From positions 1 through 64,000 of the forward strand of contig JADGJG010000026.1 of assembly GCA_027596195.1 (NCBI GenBank): DNA of 64,000 nucleotides, given 5' to 3'. A model generated the notes under the pieces. That model did not search any database. It saw nothing but the letters and a program-made list of their open reading frames with translations, and was not told the origin of the DNA. The position numbers and the translations under genes were made by a program. This document shows, in pieces, positions 13,715 through 57,190 of this stretch (position 1 is its first letter; each line of letters opens with the position of its first letter). The stretch is from Podochytrium sp. JEL0797. Lineage: Eukaryota > Chytridiomycota > Chytridiomycetes > Chytridiales > Chytriomycetaceae.

Positions 13715-13782
13715 TGTTTAAGCTAAAGGTGAAGGTGAATGTAGGTTTTGTTGTTTAAATGGCCCTCCTGGCCTTGTGCTCT

Positions 13783-13795
13783 TATATATCCTTTT
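13783..13795 (-). promoter_or_regulatory. TATA-like element of UNC93 copy B
   Basis: On the minus strand a GGATATATAAG element lies about 70-80 bp upstream of the ATG at 13714, a usual fungal TATA position. Confidence 0.5.
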
Positions 13796-13899
13796 TCGGT
13801 GGCACAAAGGACAAGCATGCTTGCTCATTGAAAATGAGGGTTGTCAACAGGTTGTGAGTCAGTTCCGTCAATTTCGCAATTTATAAGCGGCTTTTCAGG

Positions 13900-14030
13900 A
13901 TTTTTGCCAAGTCGCGCGCCACCGAAGTTCGTTGAAAACGGCTTGAAAGCCAAGCCGAGGCGTGCCTCCCGGAAGACGAATTTGGTTTGAAGGGCAAGCC
14001 GAGGCGTGCCTCCCAAATACGACGAAATTG
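13900..14030. repeat. Two-unit imperfect direct repeat, about 45 bp
   Basis: The string AAGCCGAGGCGTGCCTCCC occurs twice (about 13950-13969 and 13997-14016), each preceded by a related GAA...TTG-rich stretch. It lies between UNC93 copies B and C with no convincing reading frame. The rest of 13715-14153 is promoter of copy B and 3' flank of copy C. Confidence 0.7.
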
Positions 14031-14153
14031 GTTGTGAAATTGGTCCATTTTTCCAAGAGACGAAACAAAATGAAAATGTTCAAAACATTCTTTATTAAAA
14101 GCAGTGCATATCAGAAAATATTAACTTATTAAGATGAATACAATATTGCGAGA

Positions 14154-15602
14154 TCACTTGGATTCACCAGCTTCAACAGCCGCGTTCTTGTCATCAGTGA
14201 AATCCTTGACGAACATCTTGACGTACAAGGCAAAGAAGATGCAAGACACGGCACAAGGTCCAGTCATGACCCAGAACTGCTGAATGGTAGTCAACGCGTT
14301 GCCGTTGGCCTGAGTGAAAATGAATCCGTTCAAGGCCCAAGCGAAACCGTTGGCAGCAGACTGAGTTCCCTTGTAGAATCCGGCGTAACGAGAGAGAGTC
14401 TCAGAGTCGTTGGAGACGGCGCCAATGAGGTAGTTGACGTACACTTGGAAGAAGGCGTCGTACAATCCGTAGCAGAAGTAGAGCAAGAAGGGTCCAATGA
14501 ATTTCGGCCGTGTTTTCCGTCGCGTCAATGATTTCGAATCCAGGCGTCGACGCATGGTACTCGAACGCGGCACCACCAGCAAAGAAAGCAATACAGGTGA
14601 TGGTGCAAATGGCGCATCCGTACCAAGCGCGTCTGGTGCGCGTGAAGCGCGGGTTGTCGAGGAGCATGTTTCCGAGACCCCATGCGCCAACGGCTTGAGC
14701 GAGCCAGTAGAAGATGGCCTTGAGTCCGTTCGTGCGACCAGAGAAGTATGCTCCGAAGGGTCCGAATTGGTAGGTGTAGAACCAGTTGGAGGCCATGCAG
14801 GGGACGAGCTGTTTGGTGAAGGAGAGAGGGATTAGAAGACAGGAAGGAAAACTCAAAGTGAAGAATCACTTACAATCGTGAGCATCATGGGGTTGGTGAA
14901 GAGCTTGAGCACCTCAACGAATTCACGAAGAACATTGGTTTCCGGAGTCTCGACTTGAGTCTGGTCCTCACGGATAATAGTTCCAGGTGGGCGAATCAGA
15001 ATAGCAACGAAACAGCCACCAGCCATCAGAACGATGAAAACGAGGTACATGGCATCTCCGATAGCGTATCCAGCAGCACCAGCGGGCCAGGCAAGGATGG
15101 TTCCGATGGTGTTTCCAAGCACAGCACCCAAGTTGAAAATGACCCAGAAAATGGCGTAGAAAGTTCCCTTTTGGCCTTCGGTGGGGTAGGTCAAGCAAAT
15201 CTGGCCCTGGGCAGCCCAGAGCATACCGGCTCCAATACCGACGAGAGCACCGGTGGCAACGGAGAAGGCGTTGGCGGATGAAGGGGGCTCGACAGTGGGG
15301 TCTCCGTTGTTGGTGGATTTGTAGACGTTGTATTGGGCACCAGCGTAGACGGCGTACGAGGAACCACCGATGGCAGCGAGGATACGAGGTCCGACAATGT
15401 TGTTGAGACCACCGGCGAGGAGACCGACGATGGTGAAGCAGAGGTAAAGGGCCGCGTTTTGCTGGTCCTTAATTTGCTGGGCAGAAGGCCCAGCAGTTGG
15501 CAGGGAGTTCAAGGCATTGAACATTCCCGGGCACAGGAAGCACACGAAGGAGATGACGTACACTTGAGTACGAGCTTGGTTGAGGTTGTCCATGAATCCC
15601 AT
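14154..15602 (-). pseudogene. UNC93-like major facilitator protein, copy C, with one-base frameshift
   Basis: Exons (minus): 15602-14874 and 14808-14154. Everything aligns with copy B, including the single intron position. However, at about 14502-14504 the minus strand carries one extra A after the T-A-E codons, moving translation out of frame before I-G-P-F-L-L-Y. Downstream sequence stays open and conserved to the stop in the other frame, so the break is either very young or a base-call error. Removing one base would give a length divisible by three (460 codons). Typed as pseudogene because the sequence as given is broken; a working gene is equally possible. Confidence 0.75.
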
Positions 15603-16261
15603 GATTGGAAGATGTTTGGGTGAGATGATGAGGGAATTGACTTCTCGATTCCCGCGGTTTTTATACTTCGGCGTTGCACCAAGTTCAACTGAGCCACACA
15701 AGGCGGTAACGCGCACAAAAAGGTTCACTCTTTTCGGAATTGATTGCAATCATGTGCGAAATCTCGTAACCGTGACTCCTCGTCGCCAATCTTTCGAACG
15801 AAAAAATCGGGGTATCAGTGGCGGCAAGCTGGAAAGCCCGGAGCGGCTCCGAAACGAGTTTGAAAGTTCAAATTTTGCCGTCGACGGGACGCATGTCTGA
15901 AGGGAGGCGCGAGATAAGAGCACTTTTGGAGAGGCGTGTCGACTTCTAGACACTGCGTGAACTTAGACGTCGTGTTATATTCAAAAAGCATGGACTGGGA
16001 AACTTGATGGGTTGGGTAAACTCGGCGTCGCACACCACCCGAATCGTGGGGGGGCCAACGACGAACAATTATCCCACTATCTCAAGGAGTTCCACTCCAG
16101 TTTTTAAGCGCTTTAACTTTTTTGCCCCTTTTATTTCCAGCGTTCTGTTCAAAATTTGAACCACGTTGGGTTTGCGATAGTATGGGCTATTTTTGCGCTA
16201 TTTCAATCCCTCAAAATGAGACGCATCGCGTCAAGATCCATCTCTAAATTTTTTCGTAACA
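15603..16261. promoter_or_regulatory. Divergent intergenic region with a TATA box for UNC93 copy C
   Basis: 659 bp between the starts of UNC93 copy C (minus) and the GRF-finger gene (plus). A minus-strand TATAAAAA sits at about 15667-15660, about 60 bp from the copy C ATG. I see no credible coding exon here. Confidence 0.5.
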
Positions 16262-29153: not shown

Positions 29154-30442
29154 ATGCCAATCGAATATCCACCGCCCCCTTCTTCAAGAAAACCAGGGCC
29201 CAACAAGGGTCTTCCGATGCAACGAATGGCTGAGAATCCTGCCAAGCGCGCAGCGTTACACAAGTTTGATCGTGTCAAGGAGACGTTCAAGCGGATCAAG
29301 AAGCGCATGTCGATGCCGGTGGTGTTGGGGTCGAGTCAATACGATGGGGTTGCTCGGAATGGCTCCGTTCTGGGAAGCAGACTGCGTCCGGTTTCAGAGG
29401 CGGATTCTGCTGCGGTTCAAGATTCTGCTTTGGCGGGATCAGATACTACTGGGGTGTCATTCGAGCATTCAGACCTCGTTTCTGAAATCTATCCAATTCT
29501 GAGTGAGCATCTGTCTGGTCCGCAAGTGTTGGTGGCGTCCCCGCGACAGTCAACGGCGGACTTCACCTCGGCCCAAGCGCCCCTTTCAGCGACCTCAACA
29601 GTTGCTTCCTCAACACGGGCACATCCACCCTACAAACATTTTCTGGCCCCACGTCGCTACTCGTTCAGGTGAATCATATTCAGAATCAAACGCGTCCCTA
29701 TTACTAATCTTGATCGCGCAGCTCCCTCTTTTCCGAACCCCCTCCCGCGCAGAGATATTCATCCGACACCCCATCAATCGACTCCGAATCCAAAGACTGC
29801 TTCTGGACCGACCCCACCCCGCATTCCCTCCCCGCGTCTCCCATCACAATCTCACTCCACTCCCGTTTTTCATCGTTTGGAAACACGAGCCCCATCCTCC
29901 TCTCCAATCTTCCCATGACGTTCGCATCTACCGCGAATACGTACCCGGTTTCGGAATCGCGCGTGTTGTTGCTTGAAACGTATTGTGCGTTGATGGATGA
30001 GTTGTCGGAGTACTCGGATTCTCCTCATACGACGATCGTGGATCGAATTCAGGCTCAGTTGAATCCGTCTGTGTTGTATCTCGAGTTTCTGTTGGACTTG
30101 TTGGAGGAGTTTCCGAAAGTGGTTGCTCGAGAGGCGCTCGACAGCCCCACCAGCTCTTCCGCGAGCACCTCCATCAAGTCTGTCGAATCGAGCTTTCTGG
30201 ATGAATGCAGGGCAGCGACTCCATGTTGCTCGGAAGACGGGTCCTCGATTTCCGATTTCAGTCCACCATCGGTGGACGTTTTCCCGGTTGGAATTGTTGA
30301 GGATGGTCATGTGGGTTTCAAGGTTGCGGATGTGAAGGAGGGTGTGGGGCGTGCGGGAAACGCTCGCAAGATTGGCAAGAGAAAGTCGTTCCAAGAGGGA
30401 ATGAAGGAGCTGTTTCAGTTCCTCCGAAATCGCAGTAATTGA
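29154..30442 (+). CDS. LLETY-family protein 1 (uncharacterised)
   Basis: Exons 29154-29668 and 29722-30442 (411 aa). Parts seen: a Pro-rich start with K-G-L-P-M-Q-R; a basic helix V-K-E-T-F-K-R-I-K-K-R-M-S-M; a phase-2 intron between R-R-Y-S-F-R and S-S-L-F-S. Then a Ser/Asp-rich region, the helix L-L-E-T-Y-C-A-L-M-D-E-L-S-E followed by L-E-F-L-L-D-L-L-E-E-F-P, and a C-terminal helix M-K-E-L-F-Q-F-L-R-N. All these parts recur in the gene at 36246, and most at 41459. No known domain recognised; Ser-rich regulation and protein binding by the two helices are guesses. Confidence 0.8.
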
Positions 30443-31324: not shown

Positions 31325-32362
31325 TCAGTTCATTTGCCAAAACATGGCTCTAATATCGCAGTGGAAATACAAAATGAAGGACGGCGTGACCAAACAATCC
31401 ATCACCGCCGCGACACGGGCAATGCAGTTCCACAACACGTAATCCCATTGATCGTATTCCCCGCCAGTCATCTCCACGTACTTCAACTGAAACAGGTACG
31501 CTACCATGGGAAGGTAACATACAACTAAACACCCGCTCATGATGGCCGAATGGAAAAGAATTCGCCGTTCAGCGAGCGCGAGTGCATGACGCGTGTGATG
31601 AGGAAGCAGTGGCCCTTCATACCCGCTTTGAATCATCCATAGTTCCACCACGCCGATATTCTGTCGAAGAATCTTGGTGGAGATGTAGAATGTTCGGACG
31701 TAAAGCGAAACGGTGAATGTGAGGCCGCAACAGAATCCAATGGCCATCTCCCAGAACCACAATTCGACCTGAATCCCGTTTCCTGATGGTACCAGTCCAT
31801 CCACACTGGGTGCGGTGGCAAAGAGGCAGGCTTCCATTATGAGAACGAGTAGATTTGCCAGAATCCATGCCAAGAAATAGTTGGCGCTCGACTGGATAGA
31901 CGTTCCTTGAATCAGAAAGTATCTTTCCATCGCAAGACACACGTTTCCGCTAAATATAGAAACCTGGAGGCTGGAGGATTAGTTGGGACTTTGCGAAGGG
32001 AACCGATGGGTCCTCACCATGACGAGGGACGAGACAATCGCAAGAATACTCTTTGGCATTGCTATTGTCTGAGAATATTCAAGAATCCCATACACAACGC
32101 CGAAGGTGCTCCACCCAAAACACATGCACAGAAGGAATATCATGATCTGCGTGATTCGGTCAAACACCAGCGTACCACGACGCTGAAACACGACAGCCAA
32201 GATGTATCCGTTCACCAGACTTGCAAGACAAAACAGCGGGTAACAGATGTAAAACTCGGCAAAGTACAACGGGGCATATGCAGTGATGTTTGAAACTCGG
32301 GGATCCGATGGCAGAATCGCTGGATTCAGGGCAATGAGGGCTTCCGTGACTGGGTCGAACAT
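31325..32362 (-). CDS. Solitary rhodopsin-like seven-helix receptor
   Basis: Exons (minus): 32362-32018 and 31963-31325 (327 aa). Seven hydrophobic helices; helix 3 ends L-A-M-E-R-Y-F (the E/D-R-Y class A signature), helix 6 has V-V-C-Y-L-P and helix 7 has D-C-L-V-T-P-S-F-I-L-Y-F in place of N-P-x-x-Y. The N terminus, before helix 1, has one N-I-T glycosylation site. It is much diverged from the six receptors at 49570-56908 but shares the A-M-E-R-Y-F motif and an intron just before it. Ligand unknown. Confidence 0.8.
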
Positions 32363-32795
32363 GTTTTTAGAACAAGATTTCACGAATTCGCGTTTCACTT
32401 GTCGCCACAAAAAGATGCGCAGCAGATTTGATTTTTCTATTTTCGGCAATCGAGAAGATTTCGAACCGCAGTTCCCTATCCATTTCTGGTTTCCCTTATG
32501 CTTGGCTTTTCCTCATATGTACATTAGAAACTTTTTCCAAGATTGACTCTGATTCTTCACCGGCAACCCGCTCCACCCAAGCCGTGTGAAATACTAACCT
32601 CATAAACGCCGTTCGAGTCTTGACGCTCTGGTAGATCCAAAACCGCGAATCCTTGTCTACCTCCATCATTTGACGCGCGAATCCGTTTTATTGGCCGTGA
32701 AAGGAAATACCGATCCGAAATCGCCTCCGTTGGTGGTTCCCGGATCAGCCATCATTCCTCCCTGGCTCACCTAAATAAGACTTAAATGGAACTCG
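32363..32795. other. Intergenic region, no gene seen
   Basis: About 430 bp upstream of the solitary 7TM gene. Minus-strand frames in 32560-32760 are short and interrupted; I could not join them into a gene. Confidence 0.35.
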
Positions 32796-36245: not shown

Positions 36246-37452
36246 ATGCCAGAACGGACCGTACCACAACCGGAATCCCCACCGCCTACGTTGGCGCGAA
36301 GAGGGTCTACAAAGAGTCTCCCGATGCAGCGAGTTGAGGCTGAGAATCGCGTCAAGAATGTTCAAACGGTTGGAGGTCGCATCAAGGAATCTTTCAAGGA
36401 ACTCAAGCGCCGAATGACCATGCAGAATGGAACAACCTCGAACCGGAACGATGGAGCCATCTCGGTTCACTCGCGTGAGGTTCCCGTGGCGGATTCGTGT
36501 GTGGCCCAAGTTTCCGTCTCTGGGATGACTATCGATGCTCGAGAGGGAATCTGCGAAGAGCTGTATAGCTCTTCTGATCTTGATGTGATGACTTGGTCAG
36601 GAGAAGTGGCCGATTCTATATCACCCGAGAGCGATTCTCCTTTATCGCGAGTTCCAGACACGTACCAGCATCTACTGGCGTTGCGTCACTACTCCATGAG
36701 GTGAATCCGACGCATATTTTATCATCAACGCCTTTAATTAATCACCATTGAGTAGTTCCCTCTTTTCCGCACAGCAGCAGCCGCCGTCCGCCGACTTGGA
36801 AACCATCTACTCCGAATCTGACAATGACGACGACTTTTGGGACGACGCGAGCTCTCCTTTCCTACTTTCACACGCGTTGGTGAAGTCGCCGTCGCTCACT
36901 CTCACCTTTTCCACGATCGGAAACACGACCCCACTCCTTGCCTCCTCCAAGAATCCCGTGGATTTGCAATTGTCCGCGGAGGATTCTAATCCTGTCGTCC
37001 CAAAACTCTCGGAATCCCACACTCTACTGATCGACACGTTTTCTATGCTGATGGACGAGTTGTCGGACGTCTCGGATCTGTCCGAGTTACCTCTGGCACA
37101 AGTGCAAGTCAAGCCCAGTCTGTCGCGGATGTATCTCGATTTTCTGTCCGACTTGCTGGAGGAGTTGCCGCCTGCTCGTCCGACAATACAGTTTATGCCG
37201 CGCAACACTCCAACCACGAGCACATCAAGCTTGTTTGCAGGGCTGAACATGGAAGAAAGCACTTCCTGGTCGAAATGGGACGCATCGATTTCGGAGGATG
37301 TGGGCTTCAACTTGTCAATGCAGAGTGGGGATTCACGTGGAGAGGGGTTTCGCGCGAGAAATAGTCTCCAGTTCGGCAAGAGCATGTCGTTTGATGATGA
37401 GATGAAGGAGATGTATCGGTTCATGTGCAACCACAGAGAACTCTTGAATTGA
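36246..37452 (+). CDS. LLETY-family protein 2 (uncharacterised)
   Basis: Exons 36246-36700 and 36756-37452 (383 aa). It matches family protein 1 block by block: K-S-L-P-M-Q-R near the start; basic helix I-K-E-S-F-K-E-L-K-R-R-M-T-M; phase-2 intron between R-H-Y-S-M-R and S-S-L-F-S. Then F-W-D-D in an acidic stretch, the helix L-I-D-T-F-S-M-L-M-D-E-L-S-D, Y-L-D-F-L-S-D-L-L-E-E-L-P, and a C-terminal M-K-E-M-Y-R-F-M-C-N. A second in-frame ATG 42 bp upstream is absent; the alternative start there would be GTG. AATAAA lies 30 bp after the stop. Confidence 0.8.
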
Positions 37453-40055: not shown

Positions 40056-40593
40056 TGTTTTGGAGGGGAAAGGTGGTAGTTTTGGTTGTGGTTGAGAAGG
40101 GGAAGAGGGCCGCTCTTTATACCTGTTTTTCTACGCGCCGCTGGATTTCAAGTTGTGAAACAAGGAAGGTGTCGGTGGATCAATGGGTCAATGGGTCAAT
40201 GTGTTTAAATGCGGGTGTGATTGGATGAAATAAATTTCACGGGGAGATAAGGAGCACGTGGAAATTGCGGGGATTCCTTGGACTTTCTTGTTGAGGGCCA
40301 AAATACTGAGAGAACTTTGAGCCGCAGTTACAGCCATGGTGGCGATCGGACTCTGGTGAAAGGGTTCGTGATGGGATTCCTTAGCCCAAACCTCTAGGAT
40401 CAAGAGCTGGGGAAAAAACTTTCAAACCGCAGTCGTGACAATAGATGCGGCCACAAGTCCCCTTTTTCATGTGCTATACCCAGGGGGGTGGGAAGCGGGA
40501 CCAATCCCCCTTGAAGCACGGCACTTTCCACTGTCATGATATCTTGATTCCTTTAATTAAACCCCCCAGTTCCCAACATCTTCTCACGTTCAA
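40056..40593. other. Promoter of precursor A and 3' flank of the next gene
   Basis: 538 bp. The part up to about 40440 belongs to the inverted duplication; 40440-40593 shows nothing recognisable. Confidence 0.45.
40115..40121 (-). promoter_or_regulatory. TATA box of peptide precursor A
   Basis: TATAAAG, 60 bp upstream of the ATG, in a block nearly identical to that before precursor B. Flanking matches extend about 200 bp upstream, including short tandem GACCCATTG units. Confidence 0.7.
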
Positions 40594-41458: not shown

Positions 41459-43113
41459 ATGATCTCTCATCTCCCCGCGACCACCAACGACTCCCCCCGC
41501 CGCCCCTCCACCTCTGGCACCACCAGCACCCCCGCCAAACGCATCTCCGGGCTCTCCTCCCAACGACCACCCGCCGTCAAACCACACGGCTTGAAATCCG
41601 CCTTCAAAGGCATCTTCAAGCCCCCTGCTTCTTCTGCCTCGTCCAAGAAGCAACCGGATGTCAAGATTGTGTCGTATTCGGCGCATAAGAAGGCTGTGGT
41701 TGTAGAACCGGTGGAGAAGGAGAAGGAGGAGGTGTGGATGCAGGTTGGAGATGCACCACCTCGAGGTGACAGTTTACCGCCGTCGGTGAACGTTGCTTCA
41801 GCACTTTCAGAGGCGTACAAGGACAAACTGTCCAAAAAGTACACGTACAGGTAAGCTGAATCGGGAGGTCACAGGCGACCCACCTACGCACTCAAAATCT
41901 CTTTCATTAATGAACATCCAACCCCCCAACAAACACCAGCTCCGTCTTTACGAAACACGAATCTCTCGGGAGACCATACACTGAACCGGACCTCGATTCC
42001 TTCTCTTACTCGGAACCGTCACACCACCTTCCTTCCATCTTTACAACCCTCGATCGCGACGATATGGAACCCACCGACTTGTTGGATGACGGAGAATACG
42101 TCCTCTCGGGAACAGAATATATTGACCGCTTCGATGCTGCGCATGGCCCAGACTCAGCTGATACGGAGTCACTACATACAATCCATAACATCCGCATGCT
42201 GCCCCCGCAGGACCCACCTCCCGCAAACCCGCGGCCTGCCCCCTTCTCCCCCATCACAGACACAAGGAGAAAATCCACAGGCCATATTGCACTCCTCGAA
42301 ACCTACGCAGACATCATGGGAGAAATCTCTGACCTCGTGCCACCACACGAGATGGAACTCTCCCCTCCTCCTGCGGCGCGGAACCGACGGTCTTCTATGG
42401 CGAATTTGGAGGCATTGTTGGAGAATATGGATTTGAGTTACCTTCCGGAGGAAGAACACGTGTTACGGTCTGTGCCGAGTTCGTATTCGATTTTGAAGGC
42501 GTATGAGGACAGTGAGGGGCGTGATGGTGAGGAGGAGGAGGAGGGAAGGGAGCTGGATGGGGAAGTTGTGATTGAAGAGTATTTTGTGGAACATTGGGTT
42601 CCGTCACGGATGAGTGCTGCTTCGTCAGAGGGGGCGGAAAGTCCTGCCGTGACGCCACGGCTTGAAACGGTGGACGAGGTTGTGGATGATGTGCCGGTAT
42701 CCGCTGACGGCAATAATGACGCGGAAACATCCCCAACCCTTGTCTCTTCCTTCGAGGTACCCGTCGCAGCGGAAATTGACATCTCCTCCCGCCGTTCGTC
42801 TGCCGATGACTCAGACACAGGCCTCAGTGACGCGTCTGAACACTTGATCGTGTCTAAAGTAACCCGTGTGGTGACGCTCTCGCGCAACAAGGACGTGACC
42901 AAAGTGCAGGTGCGCGTGGAGCCGCTTGGGAAAGTGGCCGCGACGCCGGGCAAGATGGTTCGACGCGCTTCGCAGGTGAATTTGAGGCAGATGGTGGTGG
43001 AGGAGGATGAGGGGAAGGGGAAGGGTGGGCTGGTGGTGGTGGCGGCTGGGAAGAAGGGGGAGAAGAGGAAGAGTGGGTTGTCGCAGTTTTTGAATTTTTT
43101 GGCGAGTCATTGA
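41459..43113 (+). CDS. LLETY-family protein 3 (uncharacterised)
   Basis: Exons 41459-41850 and 41940-43113 (521 aa). Exon 1 carries a basic A-F-K-G-I-F-K patch and ends K-K-Y-T-Y-R; exon 2 opens S-S-V-F-T, the same phase-2 junction as family proteins 1 and 2. The helix L-L-E-T-Y-A-D-I-M-G-E-I-S-D lies about a third of the way into exon 2, followed by a second Leu-rich helix (A-L-L-E-N-M-D-L-S). The C-terminal half is acidic, then basic, ending S-Q-F-L-N-F-L-A-S-H. No known domain. Confidence 0.78.
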
Positions 43114-43379
43114 TGGACTTTTGCCAACTCCTTTTATATGTATATATGAAAAGTGTGTGGTGGACAAGGAATACAGAAAGATAGTGACTGGACACATTCA
43201 GGATTTGATGAAAACTCAATTATGCAATGGGTTAAAAATTTCATTACATACAACAGAAATTCATTCGCGGAATTGGCACAGATGACAAAGGAACGAACGA
43301 ATGAATCAATTGCAACTTCATTAGCTTGTCGTCAGTGTCTCCTCCCACCAAAATAAACGAAAAACAAACCCTCCGAAGA

Positions 43380-44267
43380 ATGGCGCACACGATGCGCGCC
43401 ACCGCCACTTTCCCACCGCGCAAACAGTCGCTCGACTATGCCACGTCCCGACCCGACTTGTCGCATCCCTTGAGACTCGAAATCAGCCCCGAAACGACAC
43501 CGCGTCGCGGATCAGATACCTCTGCCCACGAGAACCTTCTTGAAACGTATTCGGGTCTCCTTGAAGAGCTCACGGATCTGATGGAAGAATCGACAAAGCG
43601 TTCTTCTCTACAGCTACCGCCACTGGTCGGCAATACCACTGCGACGACAGCAATGCACAATCCCAAACAAGCACTCACCCAACTTCGCGACATGCTCAAA
43701 AAGATGCCCACCCCTCTCTCAAACACTCCGACGCTACGATCTGCGGTCTCGCCTGTAACACCACAACCCGTCACTACACCACAGCATTCCGGAACACCCA
43801 AGGAAAGCTGGTGGCACCATCACCACAACCTTGCACCGCCACCAAATCCTCCAGTGCTTCCGGCACCGTCTAGTCAACTCACTACCACCGCGAAGGAGAT
43901 TAAAAAGACGACAAGCACAGTCATTCCGCCGCGAAGTCTGAGTCTGCCACACAACCAGCCGGCACCCTTCAACAAGGGATACAAAGACTCTGACATGTGC
44001 ACACTCGATGATGGAAGCGAATATTATCAGATTTATACGATTGGAAGAAACGCGGACGATCGCGGCGAAAGTGTGTGGTCGAGTGTGATCGAGTCGCTGG
44101 ATTTGACGGGGTTGGAGATGTCGCCGGATGGGATGGATAACGATGAGTTGGTGATTGGTATGATTGAGGCGGGGGGTGGGGATAAGGTTGGTGAGGGAGG
44201 AATGAAGGGGGTGGGAGTGGGAAGCAAGAATTTGATGGAGCGGGTGACTGGGTTATTGCAATTTTAA
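43380..44267 (+). CDS. LLETY-family protein 4 (uncharacterised)
   Basis: 295 aa read as a single exon. Carries L-L-E-T-Y-S-G-L-L-E-E-L-T-D (about residues 53-66) and a second helix A-L-T-Q-L-R-D-M-L-K-K-M-P, as in its relatives. The long Pro/Thr/His-rich middle and a C-terminal M-E-R-V-T-G-L-L-Q-F also fit. It lacks the exon 1 basic region and the shared intron; an upstream exon may exist, since the frame is open back to 43326 next to a possible acceptor at 43334, but I could not place it. Confidence 0.7.
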   Translation: MAHTMRATATFPPRKQSLDYATSRPDLSHPLRLEISPETTPRRGSDTSAHENLLETYSGLLEELTDLMEESTKRSSLQLPPLVGNTTATTAMHNPKQALTQLRDMLKKMPTPLSNTPTLRSAVSPVTPQPVTTPQHSGTPKESWWHHHHNLAPPPNPPVLPAPSSQLTTTAKEIKKTTSTVIPPRSLSLPHNQPAPFNKGYKDSDMCTLDDGSEYYQIYTIGRNADDRGESVWSSVIESLDLTGLEMSPDGMDNDELVIGMIEAGGGDKVGEGGMKGVGVGSKNLMERVTGLLQF

Positions 44268-45979: not shown

Positions 45980-46249
45980 AAGATGAGGCATTGATGAAGG
46001 GGAAATTTGAGGCATCTTGCGGCTGAGAGTGTAATTGCGGCTCTAAGAACTTTCCCAGCTCTTGCCCCCTCAACGAAGAAAGTCGACAGTCCCTCAATTT
46101 TGATTAAATTTCCACGTGCTCCTTGTCTTGTCCCTTAAAAATTGCGTCCAATCACACCCGCATTTGAACACTTTGACCCATTGGCCCATTGATCCATTGA
46201 TCCTTCCTTGCTTCACAAATGGAAATCCAGCGGCCCGTGCAAAAAGAGG

Positions 46250-46256
46250 TATAAAG
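46250..46256 (+). promoter_or_regulatory. TATA box of peptide precursor B
   Basis: TATAAAG, 61 bp upstream of the ATG at 46317, inside the block GGTATAAAGAGCGGCCC shared with precursor A. Confidence 0.7.
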
Positions 46257-46316: not shown

Positions 46317-46739
46317 ATGAAGCTCTCCAACGTCCTCCTCTTTGCCACCCTCGCCTTGGCCGCCCCAGCTCCCATCGACAAATCCACCGGTGAAGTCGTC
46401 CAAAAGAGAGCCAGGTGGTGCATGCAGCAGTTTTGCGCCATGATGAACCCGGGTCGTCGCGACGACGGATCTGTCCCTGAGGCTGTTCCAGAGCTCCCCG
46501 CTGTTGAAGCACCCGCTGTCGTTGTTGCTCCAGTCGTTGAAGAGCCCGTGGTTGTCGCCGAGGCTCCTGCTGTCGTGGAGGAGACTGTCGCCGCGCAAGA
46601 AGGTGCAGTGGACCCTGTTACGGGGGAACCGGTCAAGAGAGCCAGATGGTGCATGCAGCAGTTTTGTGCAATGATGAACCCGGGTCGTCGTGATGGTGAG
46701 GAAGCTGGTGTGGAGGCTCCCGTCGCGGCGAGAAGATGA
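46317..46739 (+). CDS. Secreted peptide-hormone-like precursor, copy B, two identical peptide units
   Basis: 140 aa, single exon. The signal peptide ends near A-L-A-A. The same 15-residue unit, A-R-W-C-M-Q-Q-F-C-A-M-M-N-P-G, occurs twice (about 32-46 and 109-123), each between a KR and an RR. The units are separated by an acidic P-V-V-E-E-P spacer and the tail is G-E-E-A-G-V-E-A-P-V-A-A-R-R. Kex2-like cleavage at KR and trimming of RR would free a peptide with one C-x4-C pair and a C-terminal Gly (a possible amidation donor, if the organism has that enzyme). Strong promoter similarity to copy A suggests co-expression. Confidence 0.82.
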   Translation: MKLSNVLLFATLALAAPAPIDKSTGEVVQKRARWCMQQFCAMMNPGRRDDGSVPEAVPELPAVEAPAVVVAPVVEEPVVVAEAPAVVEETVAAQEGAVDPVTGEPVKRARWCMQQFCAMMNPGRRDGEEAGVEAPVAARR

Positions 46740-47163: not shown

Positions 47164-47616
47164 TCAGTCGCTCTTGGCGTAAGCCTCGTAACCCTTCTTG
47201 TAGTTCTCTCGGTGAGGGGCGTAGTTGGATTCCTTGGAGTAGTAGCCGGTGGAGTAGTCGGACTCGCCGTAACTCTTGTCGTCACCGTATTCCTTGGACT
47301 CCTCGTGACCGTACTCAACCTTGCCGTAGTAGGACTCGTCGTCACCGCGCTTGTAGTAGGTGGGAGCGTGCTTGGACTCGTATCCCTTGTTGTAGCTCTC
47401 GCGGTGAGGAGCGTAGTAGGCCTCCTTGTGGTACGAGTCGCCGTCGTAGCTCTTGTCGTCGCCGTAGTATCCCTTGGAGTAGTTCTCCGTCTCGCCGTAG
47501 CTCGTGTATTCGGGATCATGCTTGTATTCCACTGACTCGTAGTCCTCGTTGCCAGCGACAGGAGCAGTCGAGGCGCGAAGGACCAGGGAAAGAAGGATGA
47601 GTGAGGAGAGTTTCAT
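47164..47616 (-). CDS. Tyr/Lys/Glu/Ser-rich small secreted protein with internal repeats
   Basis: 150 aa, single exon. Signal peptide K-L-S-S-L-I-L-L-S-L-V-L-R-A-S-T-A. The mature part is built of imperfect units such as Y-A-P-H-R-E-[SN]-Y-x-K-G-Y-E and Y-G-D-D-K-S-Y, with about a fifth Tyr and no Cys. Such composition suits a wall, adhesive or cross-linked extracellular matrix protein; that is inference. A single K-R occurs (Y-K-R-G-D-D). A TATATAAA element lies about 55 bp upstream of the ATG on the minus strand. Confidence 0.75.
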   Translation of the reverse strand: MKLSSLILLSLVLRASTAPVAGNEDYESVEYKHDPEYTSYGETENYSKGYYGDDKSYDGDSYHKEAYYAPHRESYNKGYESKHAPTYYKRGDDESYYGKVEYGHEESKEYGDDKSYGESDYSTGYYSKESNYAPHRENYKKGYEAYAKSD

Positions 47617-47929: not shown

Positions 47930-49369
47930 TCATTCCTTGGAATCAATAATGCCGCCTTCGGAAATCGCGTAAATTGCCTCGGCTTCAGGGACAGAACTGT
48001 ATGTTGGATCGAAGAATCAATGTAAGCCAAACCCTTCAATAATGGGGGAGCAGAGATCAAAAAGCCAAACTCACGGGGAATCCCAAATCTTGCAGATTCT
48101 CGACTCGCCGCGACCTTTGCGAAGATACAGTCTCGTGGTCGAAGCGTGGGCGAGCACGTGTCCTCCGATGGGTTTCTTTGGGTCTTGCACGAACGACATG
48201 CTGGCACCTGCAAGAGTACAGCTCAGAATGGGCCCTGTTCGCGTAATACACACACAAACACACACCTGGATCCGCAGTCATTTGGTTCGTGATGAACACC
48301 GCAATGTTGAACTCTTCGGCAAGCTTCGTCAATCTCGCGAGCATCTGTCCGAGCTTCTGCTGTCTTTCGGCAAGCTCGCCACGCCCAGAATAGTCCACGC
48401 GAAAGAGGGCCATAATGGAATCCACAATGATGAGACGGAAACCGCCTTCGACGCATCTTGCTCCGACTTCCATGATGAGGTCCTGTGTTGGAAAGGAGGG
48501 GGAAATGATAAATGGACGCGTTTCGTTTGAGACAACAAGACTCTGAGCCAGACTCACCATCTGCTGCTCACAGTTGAATGCACGCGCAATGGCAATGTTT
48601 TCGAGCACGGCTTCTGGGTCCAACCCGAAACGCGTGGCGATGGATGTGATTCTGTCGTCGCGAAAGGTGCCCTCGGTATCAATGAAAATGACTCGTCCAC
48701 TGGCTCCGCCTTGGTTGGTAGGGAGTTGTGCCGTGACGCACAGCGTGTGCGAGAGTTGGGTCTTTCCGGTGCGGAATTCCCTATTTGATTTGTCAGCTCG
48801 TTTCGGACACGCCGCCAAGCACTCAAAACACGCGAAACGCACCCAAATGCCTCTGTGATGCTCGCACTCTCAATGCCCCCGTTGAGAATCTTGTCAAACT
48901 CCTTGCTCCCCGTGGTGAGTCTGAAAACGTGTCTGCGTTTGACGGAGACCTCTGTGCCCGTCAGGAATCCCTGCGGAAGAAGCTTTGCGGCGGCTTCCTT
49001 GATCTTGTCGACCTTTGCGTCCGACATTCCCTTGATCTTGCTGAGGTTGCGCACGGTCGTCATTTGGACGCCCTTTTGGCGCCGTGAGTTAAGATGCCTG
49101 GGGCAATGGCAAGTGGAAACGAAACTCACTCGGATCGTCTGGATTCCAGCGGCTTTGAGCTTCGCGATGTCAGCCACGTTGATGCCGCAGGACGCCAGCT
49201 TGTCGATCTCCATAATCTCCTAGGTTTGGGCAGGATGGGCCAGGATGCGTTAGAACCTGGCAGGCGATGGGAACGAACAAGCACACCAACACACCTCCTG
49301 CTCGTCATCCTCCTCCTCTTGTTGCTGGGGGTCGCCGAGGTTCTGGACGCGTTGGTCTGCGGATTGCAT
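47930..49369 (-). CDS. DMC1: Meiotic recombinase DMC1
   Basis: Exons (minus): 49369-49295, 49219-49130, 49072-48843, 48780-48558, 48482-48266, 48207-48075, 47996-47930 (344 aa, normal length). The helix-hairpin-helix start [11 protein letters not shown] and I-Q-T-I-R-G-V-Q-M-T-T are DMC1-like. Walker A is G-E-F-R-T-G-K-T (about 132-139) and Walker B L-I-I-V-D. Further marks are [27 protein letters not shown] and [15 protein letters not shown] and the end G-G-I-I-D-S-K-E favour DMC1 over RAD51. It forms nuclear filaments for meiotic strand exchange, so the lineage retains meiosis genes. Confidence 0.93.
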
Positions 49370-49569: not shown

Positions 49570-50683
49570 TTAATACTGCCAGAACATCATGGCCTCACGA
49601 ACCTCCTTCTTGAACAGAAACACAAGGAGAGGTGTAATAACAACATCAGCAGACAGTAAAATCACGCTGATGGAGTAAAGAATCCCAGTCGGGTCAAACA
49701 GGGACAGAAACCCGTACGTATATGACTTGATTTCGAAAGAGAAGAAGGGCGCGTAGCAAATGAGCAGTGAAACAGACAGCATCAGGCACTTGGTCAGAAT
49801 TTGCCTCTCGACTCGGTGTCGCACCAAGCCGAGCGTCTCCGGGTCGTCCTTGTTTTGCCCGTCTCTCTCGGACATGAAGAAAGTCGCAAGTGCCGGGTTC
49901 TCGTCGAACTGCCGTGAAGAGTAGCGGTACGTGCGGGTATAGAACCATGCAATGAGAATGATGGTCATTCCGTAGCAGAAGGACGCGACCACGACCCACG
50001 TGGACCGTTGGGGTTCCATGTCTGGTTTGATTCCATCAAAGGTGGTGGAAGTGGCAAACATCCAGACGACTGCCCCAATACAGATGGTGGTGAAAGTGTA
50101 TAAGGCGGCGTAAAGCTGTTTGGACCACGGGTGATCCTTGATTTGAAAGTATCGTTCCATGGCCAGGTGAATGTTGAGGCAGAAGATGGTGATAATCATG
50201 ATGTTACTGTTCAAAAGACGAGAAAGCTCGTTTAGATATCCAATATTCGGTTTGCGGGTCAAGCCCAGATCAAGGCAAGATCTCCGTCTGCAAACACAAA
50301 GCTCACCTGAACGCTGCCGCTCCGGCATTCTGGTAAGGCAACATGTTCAGGCCTTGCAAGCTGTGGGTGACGGCACGCCCTGTGGCCCAGACAAAGCAGA
50401 TGGCCACGAGACCGAAAGTGAGACGGTCCATTGACGTCTTCACCAACCGCTTGTAATCGAAGCAACTCGCAAACAGGATCGTGCCGTTCATGACCATCCC
50501 GGCAGCATAGATGTACAGCAGAATTGTGACAACGGTGGCTTGAGAGAGGGCTGGAGGTGGCAGTGTCGCAGCGATCGCCATCTGCGCTGGTGTGAGGCAG
50601 AAGTTGGGAGGCAGGCCGCGCGGGAGGTGGGAGGCGAATCCGGGCGGATATCCGCAGTTGGCAGAAGTCGTGGAGGCGTTCAT
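49570..50683 (-). CDS. Rhodopsin-like 7TM receptor, array copy 1
   Basis: Exons (minus): 50683-50307 and 50206-49570 (337 aa). The extracellular N terminus has C-G-Y-P-P-G-F-A...L-P-R-G-L-P-P-N-F-C-L-T-P, with two Cys likely bridged. Seven helices follow: L-A-M-E-R-Y-F at the end of helix 3, L-L-I-C-Y-A-P-F-F in helix 6, D-V-V-I-T-P-L-L-V-F in helix 7, then K-K-E-V-R-E-A as a helix-8 start. One phase-2 intron sits at the start of helix 3. Subfamily I with the next two copies. Ligand unknown; G-protein coupling is suggested by the E-R-Y motif. Confidence 0.83.
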
Positions 50684-51036
50684 TTGAGTTGGCGATGAGG
50701 TGGTGATCAAGGCGTCTTCAGTTGTAAAAAAATTCAGGCGCAATCGTTTCGCGAGGATCTCCTTTGCATCTCTCATTGATATCCCCATGTGCACGCGAGA
50801 TCCCCTCGCAATTGAGTTTTCCCGGTACGGCAATTGATCGTAGAAGGGTTGGTTCGCACTACCACTTCATGTCTCGTCCGCGTCCGCATTCTTGGCCCAC
50901 CCGCTTCGATGGGGGGTGGCGTTCGCACTACATAAATTTCATTTCCGATATCGTTGATCAATTGCCACCATGGCAACAGAATATAATATTACTACCGCAC
51001 CGATCGAATTTATGTAAAGGGAAAAGAAAGAAAAAG
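50684..51036. other. Intergenic region inside the receptor array
   Basis: 353 bp between copies 1 and 2, presumably the copy 1 promoter. No exon seen. Confidence 0.4.
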
Positions 51037-52105
51037 TCAAGGCGTCCCCTGTCTCGTCCAAACAAACACCTCGCGAACCTCCTTTCTAAACAAAAATACT
51101 AATAAAGGCGTAATCACGACGTCGGCAGCCAACATAATCACGCTGCAATCATAATATAGGCCGGTCGGATCAAACAGGGGCAGGAATCCGTATGCGTACG
51201 ATCTCATTTGATACGAGTAGAAGGGCGCGTAGCAAATCACCAGCGAAAGAGACAGCATCAAGCACCTGGCCAAGATTTGCCTTTCGATGCGGTTGCGCAC
51301 CAATTCAAGTGCCTCTGGGTCGTGCTTGTCGTCTCTATCCGACATGAAGACAGTCACAAGCTCCGGGATCTCTTCAAACTTCTTGGAGTAGAAGCGGTAT
51401 GTGCGGAAGTAACAGCTTGCGATGAGGGTGACAGTCATGGCATAATAACTGGACGCGACGACCACCCAAGCTGTGCGTTGCAGATCACCGTCGGGCTTGA
51501 TTCCGTCGAAAGTTGTAGAAGAGGCAAACATCCAGACAACTATGCCAATGCTGAGGGCAGAAAATGAATACAAGCCGGCATAGTACAACCGCGACGCCGA
51601 ATGGTAACTCTTGACTTGAAAGAAGCGCTCCATGGCTAGGTGCGCGTTAAGGCAGAAAATGCAAATAACCATGACACTGCTGTGTAGTCGTTAGGATGCA
51701 TTCTCGAAAAGAACGGAATGCTCACCAAAACGCTGCAGCTCCAACATTCTGCAAAGTGAGTGTGCCTGAGCTTTGGAACTTGTGAAAGACTGTGCGGCCA
51801 ACAGACCAAATGAAGCATATGCTGACTAATCCACAAGTAATTCTATCCATTGTTGTTTTCAAAAGACGCTTGTGGTTCCAATAAATAGCCAATATAATCA
51901 ATCCATTCATGGCGATTCCAGCAGAGTAAATGTACATCAGGATTGAGATGACTTTGGAAGCAGAGAGGGCCGGGGGTGGCAGGGTGGTGAGGATCACAAT
52001 CTGCGCGGGAGTGAGGCAAGAGTGTGGTGGGAGTCCGGGCGGGAGGGTATCAGCAAGACCGGGCGGATATCCGCAGGTGTCGTTTCGTTGCGATGCAGCA
52101 TTCAT
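51037..52105 (-). CDS. Rhodopsin-like 7TM receptor, array copy 2
   Basis: Exons (minus): 52105-51726 and 51676-51037 (339 aa). Same N-terminal plan (C-G-Y-P-P-G-L-A...L-P-P-G-L-P-P-H-S-C-L-T-P) and same phase-2 intron as copy 1. Helix 3 ends L-A-M-E-R-F-F, so the tyrosine of E-R-Y is Phe here. Helix 6 has V-I-C-Y-A-P-F-Y and helix 7 D-V-V-I-T-P-L-L-V-F. The start at 52105 follows a GTG two codons upstream that is not an ATG. Confidence 0.83.
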
Positions 52106-52282
52106 TTCCACTTCCCCGATGAATGAATTGAATTTATTTCGTCAAATTCCAGTCAAATTCATCCGCCACTTCTAATTGATTGACTAATGCAGCAAAACTT
52201 CTAATTCAAAATTACAGCACCAGCATGCTCGCCTTAACTTTCTGTTACGCCTCCACAGTTTATTTTGAACGTTGAGATAGGC

Positions 52283-53372
52283 TCACTTCCAGAACATGAA
52301 AGCCTCGCGAACCTCCTTTCGAAACAAGAACACCAACAAAGGTGTAATCAAGACATCAGCCGACAGCAAAATCACAGTGATGGAGTAAAAAATCCCAGTC
52401 GGATCAAACAGAGGTAGAATTCCGTACGCGTATGACATGATTTGATATGAGTAAAAGGGCAAGTAGCATATGACCAGTGAAAGAGACAGCATCAGGCACC
52501 TGGCCAAGATTTGCCTTCCGACTCGGTGTCGCACCAAGCCGAGCGTCTCGGGGTCGTCCTTGTTCTTGCTGTCTCTCTCGGACATGAAGAAGGTTGCGAG
52601 CGCTGGGTTCCCGTCGAATTGCCTGGAGAAGAAGAGGTATGTGCGGGTATAGAACCACACAATGAGAATGATGGTCATTCCGTAGCAGAAGGTCGCGACC
52701 ACGACCCACGTTGTGCGTTGCGGATCACTGTCGGGCTTGACTCCATCGTACGTGGTTGTATCAATAAACATCCAGACGACTGCCCCAATACAGATTGTGG
52801 TGACAGAGTACAAGCCGGCATACAGTCGCGACTCGCAGGGGTGATTCTCGATTTGGAAGCATCTCTCCATGGCCAGCTGCACATTGAGGCAGAAAATTGA
52901 CAAGATCATGATGTTTCTATTTTTCATGTATTTAGAATTGGAAGAACTGAGCTTAAAAAAACACAAATCGGGGCAAGGAACGGAATACTCACGAAAACGC
53001 GGCAGCTCCCGCATTCTGCAAAGTCAGTACGTTCAAGCCTTCTAACCCGTGAAAGAGTGCACGGCCAAAGGACCAAACGAAGCAGACACCAACAAGTCCG
53101 AAAGTAAGTCGATCCAACAACGTTTTCAAAAGAGACTTGTGGTTCCAGCAGCAGGCAAACAAAATCGATCCGTTCATAACTACTCCAGCTGCGTAAATGT
53201 ATAGCAGGATTGTGACAACTGTGGAAACAGAGATGGCCGGGGGTGGCAGGGTGGTGAGGATAGCAATCTGCGTGGGAGTGAGGCAAAAGCTTGGTGGGAG
53301 ACCGGGCGGGAGGGAAGTGGCAAGTCCAGGAGGATATCCGCATTGGTCGTTGGGCGGCGATGGAGAGTTCAT
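52283..53372 (-). CDS. Rhodopsin-like 7TM receptor, array copy 3
   Basis: Exons (minus): 53372-52993 and 52916-52283 (337 aa). Subfamily I N terminus (C-G-Y-P-P-G-L-A...C-L-T-P), seven helices, and the shared phase-2 intron. Helix 3 ends L-A-M-E-R-C-F, replacing the E-R-Y tyrosine with Cys, which may alter activation. Helix 6 V-I-C-Y-L-P-F-Y and helix 7 D-V-L-I-T-P-L-L-V-F. Closest to copy 1, with long stretches of identity in the third cytoplasmic loop (F-F-M-S-E-R-D...D-D-P-E-T-L-G-L-V-R-H-R-V). Confidence 0.83.
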
Positions 53373-53466
53373 TTCCCCTTCTGCGATGAATGAATTTTGA
53401 ACGGGAATTCGAGTTGATAAAATCTGTGATATTCTACAATGGTCGCCTTCCTTCCCTTCAAAAAAT

Positions 53467-54524
53467 TCACTTCCAAAAATACAAAGCTTCACGCATCTCC
53501 TTCTTGAAATACAAGACGAGCATCGGTGTGACCTGGAAATTTTTGAGCAAATTGGCGCAGACAAGGAAAAACAAACGCGAATGAAGCGACGTACCACCAT
53601 GTCAACAGCCAGCATGATAGCTCCGGCAAAAAAAAATTGACCCTGAGGATCATACGCTGCGATATTACCGCTGTTTGCCACAAACAGAACGCTCCAAGTG
53701 AACAACGGCAGGTAGCAAATCACCAACGAAATGGAAAGGAGCACGCATTTGATGAGAATCGTTCTCTCTGATGGGGTGAATGAATGATGAGCTTTGCAGT
53801 GTGGCTAGTCGCACTCCCAAATCGTACCAACTCGCAGCCGAATAAGCTCCAGAGTTTCCATATTGTTGTTCCGCTCATCACCCTCCTTCATGAAGAAGGT
53901 CAACATCATTGGATTTTCGCGGAATTGGCGTGCAGAGTAGCGGAATGTCCGCACATAACACCAAATCATGATGAGGACAGTCCCCACGAACGTGGCAATG
54001 ATTTCACTGATCCACATGGTTTGTTGCAGCGTATACTCGGGTCCGACGCCGTTGCTTGGCTTCATATTGAATTTTCAGCGAATACTGCGCGATCAGTCAT
54101 CAGGGGTCCTCACCGACGTCGAGAAGGCGTAACAAACTATCCCTAGAAAGACAAACATCACGGAATACAGCGCCGTGAACAACTGCCTCGCGTATGGGTG
54201 CTCCCTTATTTGAAAGTACCGCTCCATGGCCAAACTGCCGTTGAAGAAGAAGATCAACACGAGGCACAGGTTTGAGAAAGCGGCACTCGTGGGATCGCTG
54301 TGTGCGAGATTTCCAACGCCCTGCATGGTTTCGATCACGACTCGGCCGAGGGACCAGATGAAGGAGACGAGGAGGAGGGCGAATGTGATACGGTCCATGC
54401 GGGATTTGAGAAGCTTCTTGGGGAACAGGGCCGATGCCGCCAGGCAGACGCCGTTCAAGAGGGTCGCAAGGCCGTAGACGTACAGCTTGATCATGATGAC
54501 CTGGTCGAACGTGAGGACGAACAT
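53467..54524 (-). CDS. Rhodopsin-like 7TM receptor, array copy 4
   Basis: Exons (minus): 54524-54114, 54059-53828, 53767-53595, 53532-53467 (293 aa). Subfamily II: almost no extracellular N terminus (M-F-V-L-T-F-D-Q straight into helix 1). L-A-M-E-R-Y-F, V-I-C-Y-L-P-L-F and D-M-V-V-T-P-M-L-V-L-Y-F mark helices 3, 6 and 7. Three introns, at different places from subfamily I. The acceptor before exon 2 (at 54060) was set by alignment with copy 5. Confidence 0.8.
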
Positions 54525-54708
54525 CGGGCTGCGGGCTGTGGGACGAAAAGTGCGGAGAGATCTGGATCTCTGTCGGGCGCCGTGCCGCCTTTCTCTTCTT
54601 CGAACCAAATTTTTTCCCCTAAATTTTTCAAATTGATGAAATTGATTGTGATAGCGAATTAATATTGTGTTGCTATATTCTATCATATTCTACAATGGTT
54701 GCCTTTCC

Positions 54709-55713
54709 TCACTTCCAAAAATACAAAGTTTCGCGCATCTCCTTCTTGAAATATAGCACAAGCATCGGCGTAACCACCATGTCAACAGCCAGCATGATCG
54801 CTCCGGCAAAAAAGAATTGACCCTGTGGATCGTACACTGCCGCGTTGCCGTTATTGGCCACAAACAGAACGCTCCAGATGAACAACGGCAGGTAGCAAAT
54901 CACCAAAGAAATGGAAAGGAGCACGCATTTGATGAGAATCGTTCGCTCTGATGGGGGTGAAATATGAGTTTTGCAAGGCGGCAGGTCACACTCCCAAATC
55001 TCACCAACTCGCAGCCGAATAAGCTCCAGAGTTTCCATATTGTTATTCCGCTCGTCGCCCTCCTTCATAAAGAACGTCAACATCATTGGATTTTCTCGGA
55101 ATTGGCGTGCGGAATAGCGGAATGTCCGCACATAACACCAAATCATGACGAGAAGAATCCCGACGAATGTGGTTATGATTACACTGATCCACATGGTTCG
55201 TTGCAGCGCGAAATCGGGTCCGACACCGAATCTGCTTGTCTGTAAACTAATTAATAGGGAATCGAGCGAATACGGCGTCGTGATTTAATCACGGGTCCTC
55301 ACCGACGTCGAAAATGCATAACAGACGATCCCCAGAAAGACAAACATCACAGAATACAGCAGCGTGAACCACTGCCTCGCGTATGGGTGCTCCCTGATTT
55401 GAAAGTACCGCTCCATGGCCAAGCTTCCGTTGAAGATGAAAATCACGACGAGGCACAGGTTTGAAAAACCGGCACTCGTGGGATCGTCTTGTCCGAGATT
55501 ATCAACACCCTGCATGGTTTCGATCACGACTCGGCCGAGAGACCAGATAAAGGAGACGAGGAGGAGGGCGAATGTGATGCGGTCCATGCGGGATTTGAGG
55601 AGCGTCTTGGGGAAAACGGCCGACGCTACTAGGCAGACGCCGTTCAGGAGAGTCGCAAGCCCGTAGACGTATAACAGGATCATGATGACCTGATCAACCG
55701 TGAGGATGAACAT
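54709..55713 (-). CDS. Rhodopsin-like 7TM receptor, array copy 5
   Basis: Exons (minus): 55713-55303, 55239-55005, 54947-54709 (294 aa). A near-twin of copy 4 through most of its length, with identical loop blocks such as R-Y-S-A-R-Q-F-R-E-N-P-M-M-L-T-F-F. It lacks the last intron of copies 4 and 6, so helix 7 (D-M-V-V-T-P-M-L-V-L-Y-F) is read straight through. E-R-Y intact. Confidence 0.83.
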
Positions 55714-55847
55714 CGGGCTGCGAGACGGAAAGTGGGGAGAGATCTGGATCTCTGTCGGGCGCTGCGCCTCCCACTTCTCTTCTTCGAACCACTGCTGATT
55801 AAAAATTTCTGTCGAGCAAGAATACGAGCTTTGATTCAGGCATCGAA

Positions 55848-56908
55848 TTATTTCCAAAAATACAGAGCCTCACGCATTTCCTTCTTGAAATACAAAACGA
55901 GCACCGGCGTCACCTGGAATTCAAAGGTTATTCCTTGCTGTCCCGCCTCGCGAAAACAACTCACCACCATATCGACAGCCAAGAAAATCACCCCGATAAA
56001 GAAGAATTGCATGTCTGGATCAAATATAAGAGGGTTGCCATTGTGGTAGGCGAACAGGAGGCACCACGAGAACAGCGGCAGATAGCAAATCACCAGCGAA
56101 GCAGAAAGAAGGACGCATTTGACGAGAATCTGGCGTTCTGAATAGAAGCCATGCAGCTCAGGCCATGTAATCACCAAAACACGCGTTTGCAAAGTATCCT
56201 CACCGACTCTGAGGCGAATGAGTTCCAGATTTTCCGAATCATCCCATTCCTCTCCTTGCTTCATGAAGAATGTCAGCATGGTTGGGTTCTCGCGGAATTG
56301 TCGTGCAGAGTAACGAAACGTGCGAGTGTAGCACCAAATCATGATGAGGAGAATTCCAAAAAACGTCAACATGAGTTCTCCGATCCACAAATTCATCTGC
56401 AGCGAAGAATCAGGCCCAGCACCGGTCAAACTCGTCTATTAAATTAAGGGTTTACAATGGGCTTGGGATGGGCTTGTCAAAACCAAGATCTCACCGAAGT
56501 TGAGAAGGCGAAAACAACGATTGCGAGGAACCCTGCCATCACGAGATACAGTGCCGTGAACAGCTCCTTCCCCAATGGATGCCCCTTGATCTGAAAGTAC
56601 CGTTCCATCGCCAAACTCCCGTTCAAAAAGAAGATGAGGACAATACACAGGTTTGAGAATCCCGCACTGCACGTATCGCTTTGGGCGAGTACATGGCGAG
56701 CCTGCATCGATTCGATCGCTACCCGTCCCAGGGACCAGAGAAACGAGACGAGGAGGAGACCAAACGTGATGCGGTCAATACGGGATTTGAGGAGTTTCTT
56801 GGGGAACATGACGGATGCGAAGAGACAGATTCCGTTCAGGGCGGTACCGGCGGCATAAGTATATAATAGGATCAATATGACCTGGTCATTGGAGAGTGAG
56901 AGATCCAT
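55848..56908 (-). CDS. Rhodopsin-like 7TM receptor, array copy 6
   Basis: Exons (minus): 56908-56495, 56435-56204, 56137-55965, 55913-55848 (294 aa). The most diverged subfamily II member but with all the same landmarks: L-A-M-E-R-Y-F, V-I-C-Y-L-P-L-F, D-M-V-V-T-P-V-L-V-L-Y-F and K-K-E-M-R-E-A-L-Y-F-W-K at the end. Intron positions match copy 4. The start at 56908 (M-D-L-S-L-S) gives the same short N terminus as copies 4 and 5. Confidence 0.83.
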
Positions 56909-56989
56909 GATTGGTGAGCCACAGGAGAATTTTAACAAGCTTGTTGATTAAATTTCGATCGCGGATCTCATAATTTAATTGAATTGAAA

Positions 56990-57190
56990 AAGAAAATATA
57001 CAATAAACATCGGGGGAATGAGGACGTCCACCGACAGGCGCATGACACACGCATAGAAATATGCACCATTGGAATCAAATGGAAATGTAACAAAGCAGAA
57101 ACGAGACGGAGCATCACGCATTTAATCAACACTTGGCGTTCCAAGGTGTCCCGATGCAGCTCGAGAGATTCGTGGTCCATATCAATCATG
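56990..57190 (-). pseudogene. Truncated 7TM receptor relic
   Basis: On the minus strand, S-L-E-L-H-R-D-T-L-E-R-Q-V-L-I-K-C-V-M-L-R-L matches the loop before helix 6 of the array copies. Then, in another frame, A-Y-F-Y-A-C-V-M-R-L-S-V-D-V-L-I-P-P matches helix 7. Helix 6 and all upstream helices are missing. It has no start and is evidently dead. Confidence 0.75.

Follow-up and report, generated by a model that had tools for sequence, protein, structure and literature searches.

A dispersed family of putative Kex2-processed peptide precursors in the chytrid Podochytrium sp. JEL0797

The chytrid Podochytrium sp. JEL0797 carries a family of small genes that most likely encode a secreted signalling peptide of the KEP class, processed by Kex2 and Kex1. 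A probability of roughly 60% can be given to this reading. One member, precursor A, lies in a window of 64 kb, which is the whole stretch of DNA that was analysed (Table 1). In its product a leader is followed by a short pro-segment ending in KR, the peptide unit ARWCMQQFCAMMNPG, RR, a spacer, KR, a second copy of ARWCMQQFCAMMNPG, RR, and a short tail. The two units are identical, with 15 residues each, and occupy residues 32-46 and 109-123. Dibasic pairs start at residues 30 (KR), 47 (RR), 107 (KR), 124 (RR), and 139 (RR), and the spacer of 58 residues has a net charge of -13.

A sequence-only reading of this DNA had described the open reading frame as a secreted multi-unit precursor in a zoosporic fungus. 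The coordinates and content of the 140-residue frame, read from ATG to TGA, are borne out, as are the two identical units between KR and RR, the acidic spacer, and the overall layout of leader, units, and dibasic sites. The claimed signal peptide corresponds to a signal-like leader, judged only by its hydropathy (peak 2.61 at residues 6-16). The organism is indeed a zoosporic fungus, since database names identify it as Podochytrium sp. JEL0797, a chytrid.

From this layout a route to the mature peptide can be proposed. A kexin would cut the precursor after KR and RR, much as yeast frees its mating signal from a larger precursor. A reservation is that the RR after the units is followed by Asp, though Kex2 tolerates this. 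A Kex1-like carboxypeptidase would trim the basic residues, releasing the 15-residue peptide, which would probably carry a single disulfide linking its two cysteines. The peptide may then act as an intraspecific signal that a surface receptor recognises, perhaps one of the adjoining class-A GPCRs. We infer secretion, cleavage, the disulfide, and the signal function. Release of a 15-residue peptide is very probable, the chances of its being an intraspecific signal are about even, and a role in mating is unlikely. A structure model of the whole of precursor A has no confident fold (mean pLDDT 48.5, from a shallow alignment of 5 sequences only), as is expected of an uncut precursor.

Table 1. Positions of the precursor genes, their promoter features, and the GPCR-like genes in the window.
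Feature	Position	Strand	Remarks
Precursor A, two-unit secreted-type peptide precursor, 140 aa	46317..46739	+	ORF, ATG to TGA
Signal-like leader MKLSNVLLFATLALAA, precursor A	46317..46364	+	sequence; hydropathy only
Unit 1 = ARWCMQQFCAMMNPG, precursor A	46410..46454	+	KR before (46404-46409), RR after (46455-46460)
Acidic spacer rich in Val/Ala/Glu/Pro, precursor A	46461..46634	+	constrained less than unit 2
Unit 2 = ARWCMQQFCAMMNPG, precursor A	46641..46685	+	KR before (46635-46640), RR after (46686-46691)
Tandem CCATTGAN octamers, precursor A promoter	46170..46204	+	promoter comparison
TATAAA, precursor A	46250..46255	+	present in 5/5 aligned precursor promoters
Precursor B, 139 aa	39636..40055	-	first unit diverged, C-x4-C kept; second unit identical to that of A
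Tandem CCATTGAN octamers, precursor B promoter	40176..40202	-	promoter comparison
Tandem array of class-A GPCR-like genes, six copies and a fragment	49573..57141	-	candidate receptors only
GPCR copy	49573-50683	-	two or more exons/matched stretches
GPCR copy	51061-52096	-	two or more exons/matched stretches
GPCR copy	52286-53372	-	two or more exons/matched stretches
GPCR copy	53470-54524	-	two or more exons/matched stretches
GPCR copy	54712-55758	-	two or more exons/matched stretches
GPCR copy	55851-56899	-	two or more exons/matched stretches
GPCR fragment	56993-57141	-	same family
Distant single member of the array's GPCR family	31328..32512	-	25-26% identity

Eight related precursor loci can be found in this organism, two of them within the window. 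Seven come from searching the 24.4 Mb assembly at the protein level and reading the 9 hits; the two weaker ones (C263, E 0.055; C197, E 0.13) were not accepted as members. The second precursor in the window, precursor B, had been missed by the sequence-only reading; its first unit is NVYCVTESCREGMRKMFS and ends in SR-D, not RR. Contig C617 has three loci: one cut by the contig end (C617a), one with the single unit GGERCRPGYCGKPP followed by RR (C617b), and one with two identical units (C617c). The locus on C924 has the units SKWCAQQFCAMMNPG and ARWCMQQFCAMMNPG, and that on C959 is degenerate, with a stop within its second unit. The eighth member, P0005, has the cysteine-free unit GGAMLSNNGFVMMNPG and lies on an 8,585-base contig that was unmatched in the assembly search and seems to be missing from the assembly. 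The C-x4-C spacing is kept in four different unit sequences (ARWC, SKWC, NVYC, and GGERC types) and gone from P0005 and from the first unit of C959. With the first unit replaced in B and altered in C924, a different single unit in C617b, a degenerate C959, and a P0005 without cysteine, the family appears to be partly changing or decaying.

The copies are scattered, each in a block of some 0.5-0.75 kb. In the best-matched pairs, the gene and roughly 90-210 bases on each side are in common. Because the flanks otherwise differ, the copies are read as dispersed paralogs and not as alleles. A comparison of open frames found no neighbouring genes that recur among the precursor contigs, save the precursors themselves.

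Evidence for constraint on the peptide is provided by its second copy. The test covers the 20-residue cassette KR-unit-RRD in A, B, C617a, C617c, and C924, leaving out C617b, C959, and P0005, whose units differ. Among its variable sites in these five loci, 7 are synonymous and none is nonsynonymous, whereas the spacer has 26 synonymous and 27 nonsynonymous ones (Fisher p=0.013, with changes counted as independent although the loci share ancestry). Since the second unit changes only synonymously while the spacer changes in both ways, the 15 residues and both dibasic sites look to be held by selection at this position. The first unit is freer: among the four loci of the test set with a whole first unit, A and C617c have it intact, C924 has it with slight changes, and B has another unit in its place. 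A pooled test of the seven ARWC copies gives 10 synonymous and 0 nonsynonymous sites (p=0.0034; 10 and 4 if the SKWC unit is added), but it is circular because the copies were picked for their identity, and the second-unit test is relied on instead. A DNA pattern for ARWCMQQFCAMMNPG occurs 7 times in the assembly versus 0 times in a reversed control, with all 7 occurrences in reading frames of this one protein family. These counts, the shared frames, and the synonymous-only differences in the second unit place the unit beyond chance.

Conservation, which had been proposed as a check on the peptide, is therefore strong for the second unit among five paralogs and weak for the first, and no relative was found outside this organism. 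Single-sequence and profile searches of 5.8 billion proteins (8000 candidates were scored in the profile search) agree in their result: five proteins, of which three carry the name of this organism and two come from the window itself. The database does include related chytrids, yet no relative of the precursor was found among them, which counts against a signalling peptide. No exact string of the unit was found in the main texts of open-licence PMC papers. The earlier remark that the unit resembles no known peptide thus stands in the protein-database and literature searches made.

Kexin-like genes, which it had been suggested to look for, are found in the genome. One, on contig C967, encodes an S8 (subtilase) and a P domain and is cut by the start of the contig. 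Two places on C90 also have P domains above the cut-off; the matched stretch there contains one stop, which may reflect introns. Serine carboxypeptidase matches lie on seven contigs, in 19 stretches. On C304 they form an array of three copies, two apparently whole and one degenerate. For the C304 enzyme, in a copy joined from exons, the best solved relative is yeast KEX1 (140 bits), followed by cathepsin A (130.6) and carboxypeptidase Y (112). KEX1 trims Lys and Arg from Kex2 products. NCBIfam gave no match on the C304 carboxypeptidases, and a better Kex1 counterpart may exist on the other six contigs, as only the matches of C304 were read.

The C304 array is linked to the precursors by a promoter element. 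In the promoters of A, B, C617c, and C924, CCATTGAN is repeated in phase, two or three times by a strict pattern, and its first copy lies 70-73 bases upstream of TATAAA. The element is thus present in four of the five precursor promoters examined; the fifth, that of C617b, has TATAAA without octamers. A 19-base pattern was written from these promoters, so that hits at precursors arise by construction and only those on C304 are informative. With at most one mismatch, the pattern is found 7 times in the 24.4 Mb, at precursors in 5 cases and at the C304 array in 2, and never in the reversed control. With at most two, there are 13, of which 6 are at precursors, 3 on C304, and 4 elsewhere, and the control has 1. 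At this setting C304 is the only carboxypeptidase contig with the element, which stands before each of the three copies. In only one of these promoters is a near-exact element joined by TATAAA, 59 bases downstream of the first octamer; a second promoter has TATTAA, and the third has neither. The link was noticed after the fact, and since the three copies are tandem duplicates it amounts to one coincidence, not three. Nevertheless, in our judgement an accident seems unlikely for so rare an element at this enzyme class.

Other occurrences of the element are few. In a scan of 140,783 bases in eleven sequences, the only two-octamer match away from the precursors and the C304 array is on C617 at 12607 (-), where no gene was recognised. 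Outside the window, at C27:34287 (-), a two-mismatch element lies about 80 to 100 bases before the start of an OPT oligopeptide-transporter-like gene (18.6 bits, below the cut-off). At the three other two-mismatch hits, a reading of 411 bases each showed nothing recognisable. All 5 window hits with up to 3 mismatches are at the two precursor promoters, and none is near the GPCR genes.

The GPCR array begins 2.8 kb from precursor A. Between the two lies a Rad51-family recombinase gene (48057-49219, -), which we take to be DMC1-like. Relatives of the GPCR family are found in Rhizoclosmatium, Siphonaria, Entophlyctis, and Physocladia, and the motif MER[YCF], at the E/DRY position of TM3, is kept in all 11 aligned proteins. 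Rhodopsin-class GPCRs with ERY have been described earlier from chytrids (PMC3251606). The modelled structure (mean pLDDT 79.5) shows the seven-helix, class-A fold of GPCRs, an assignment that is weak by sequence alone. For instance, Pfam 7tm_1 is below threshold in one of the three GPCR stretches scanned (24.7 of 30.5 bits) and absent in the other two, and a sequence-profile search matched no PDB chain. When folds are compared, 49 of the best 50 of 618 PDB matches (E up to 0.001) name class-A receptors, and the remaining one is titled only a peptide receptor complex. By our own count, 37 of these 50 are peptide receptors, in a PDB that is itself rich in peptide receptors.

That these neighbours are the receptors of the peptide is a hypothesis only, and an unlikely one. 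Matches of the GPCR family occur on 19 contigs of the 24.4 Mb, in 48 stretches, and just one of the four precursor contigs has them. By chance, about 0.09 GPCR-bearing contigs would be expected in 115 kb (an estimate). Because of this figure, and because the window is generally rich in tandem duplicates, the linkage is not counted as significant. Examples of such duplicates are a GH76 pair (1020-4550, +) and a repeated UNC-93/MFS-like family (10420-15749, -).

Further open reading frames of the window can be described. A small, secreted-looking frame rich in Tyr, Ser, and Asp (47164-47616, -; MKLSSLILLSLVLRASTAP...) has two long half-repeats around a single KR. Four frames on the forward strand (29714-30442, 36742-37452, 41914-43113, and 43305-44267) have, by eye, an LLETYxxLMDELSD-like motif; the first two are 28% identical. 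None of the five has a Pfam match.

Several other explanations of the family have to be weighed. The peptide could be an exported effector, antimicrobial, or antagonist aimed at another organism, such as an algal host, bacteria, or competitors. Multi-copy, changing, species-restricted small secreted cysteine peptides would be typical of effectors, the first units do vary between loci, and other Podochytrium species are named as diatom parasites in PMC10643281. However, five loci keep the second unit unchanged although their spacers differ, which suits an unchanging receptor more than an arms race, and at most one disulfide is possible per unit. Overall, an effector is rather unlikely. A structural or surface-coating protein with the units as building blocks, either cleaved like Rep1 of Ustilago or uncleaved, is less probable still. 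Surface peptides of the Rep1 type are cited in the KEP papers (PMC6339444, PMC7329392), but each protein here has two units only, the long spacer is weakly constrained, and there is no confident fold, on a shallow alignment.

The two remaining explanations are very improbable. One sees in the units the core peptides of a ribosomally made, cyclised natural product like ustiloxin, a dikaritin. Precursors of this kind have core repeats flanked by Kex2 sites and surface in the same KEP-type screen (PMC7329392). Against this, UstYa (PF11807) has no match above the cut-off in the genome, where one fragment reaches 17.1 of 25 bits; as the same search is also without a match in all 14 control genomes, its absence here is weakly supported. 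The other, slightly less probable again, regards the frames as a dispersed short sequence without product. It would fit the dispersal in blocks with otherwise unrelated flanks, and the degenerate locus on C959. It does not fit the purely synonymous variation of the second unit in five loci, nor the conservation of TATAAA and the promoter element. Because the unit is constrained and the promoter element is shared, the case for function is better than usual, and a processed signalling peptide is preferred.

Such a peptide would be a tangible candidate signal molecule for chytrids, fungi whose signals are largely unknown. It has a definite sequence of 15 residues that can be synthesised, and possible receptor genes and a possible regulatory element lie beside it, which makes peptide signalling directly testable in a chytrid. 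A full module would combine a multi-copy C-x4-C peptide, a co-regulated Kex1-like array, and, as receptors, a linked and expanding array of class-A (animal-type) GPCRs. This combination is improbable. If true, the module would represent in fungi what peptide-GPCR signalling is in animals. It would not depend on STE2 or STE3 and would be a candidate for a signal of mating or aggregation among zoosporic fungi.

Known systems resemble the family to different degrees. Precursors of amidated neuropeptides in animals are alike in their dibasic sites and in the Gly before RR, which is present in the ARWC and SKWC units (Gly is also found in P0005). They are unlike it in that two loci have variant units without Gly before the dibasic site (GGERCRPGYCGKPP-RR of C617b and the NVYC...MFSR unit 1 of precursor B), and no peptide-amidating enzyme was recognised. 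The missing Gly speaks against an amidated neuropeptide precursor, and the suggestion that the unit could end in an amide is not supported. The search, made for the monooxygenase half only, found one copper type II monooxygenase gene, outside the window at C542:11.8-13.1 kb, with its N-terminal domain over the cut-off and its C-terminal domain under it. Its only solved match is dopamine beta-hydroxylase (E 0.00022), and an enzyme of this type is, to our knowledge, unusual in a fungus.

Alpha-type precursors of ascomycetes, such as PPG1 of Trichoderma, share the leader, the Kex2 sites, and short two-cysteine peptides starting with WC. Here, the units are not preceded by the XA or XP of Ste13, KR being followed by AR, SK, NV, or GG, and the host is a chytrid. 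An extra KR in precursor B is followed by AV, and RR-DA stands behind a unit in C924 and P0005. Membership among the ascomycete alpha pheromones is not supported, as the core WCMQQFC is without the Gly and second Trp of the consensus WCxxGxxCW (PMC3068285). STE2 is placed only in Ascomycota in a 2025 survey (PMC12842992). STE2 and STE3 had no match in the genome, in a search equally silent in all 14 control genomes.

In the P/R mating locus of basidiomycetes, peptide genes and receptor genes likewise lie only kilobases apart. The pheromones of basidiomycetes are lipid-modified and act through STE3, whereas here class-A GPCRs adjoin a secretory-pathway precursor, and the linkage is seen at one of four precursor contigs only.

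The closest likeness is to KEPs, in which a signal peptide likewise precedes repeated, near-identical peptides between dibasic sites. It is drawn from the description of the class, and the features found here are the signal-like leader (by hydropathy), two identical units flanked by KR and RR, and a kexin in the genome. According to PMC6339444 and PMC7329392, KEP types are mostly unique at genus level, and KEPs are reported from Chytridiomycota. The two units of this family are under the three repeats required by a 2019 survey, a screening threshold and not a biological definition; some alpha-pheromone precursors also have fewer, as stated in that survey (PMC6339444). A further difference is the promoter element, which this family has in common with a Kex1-like array.
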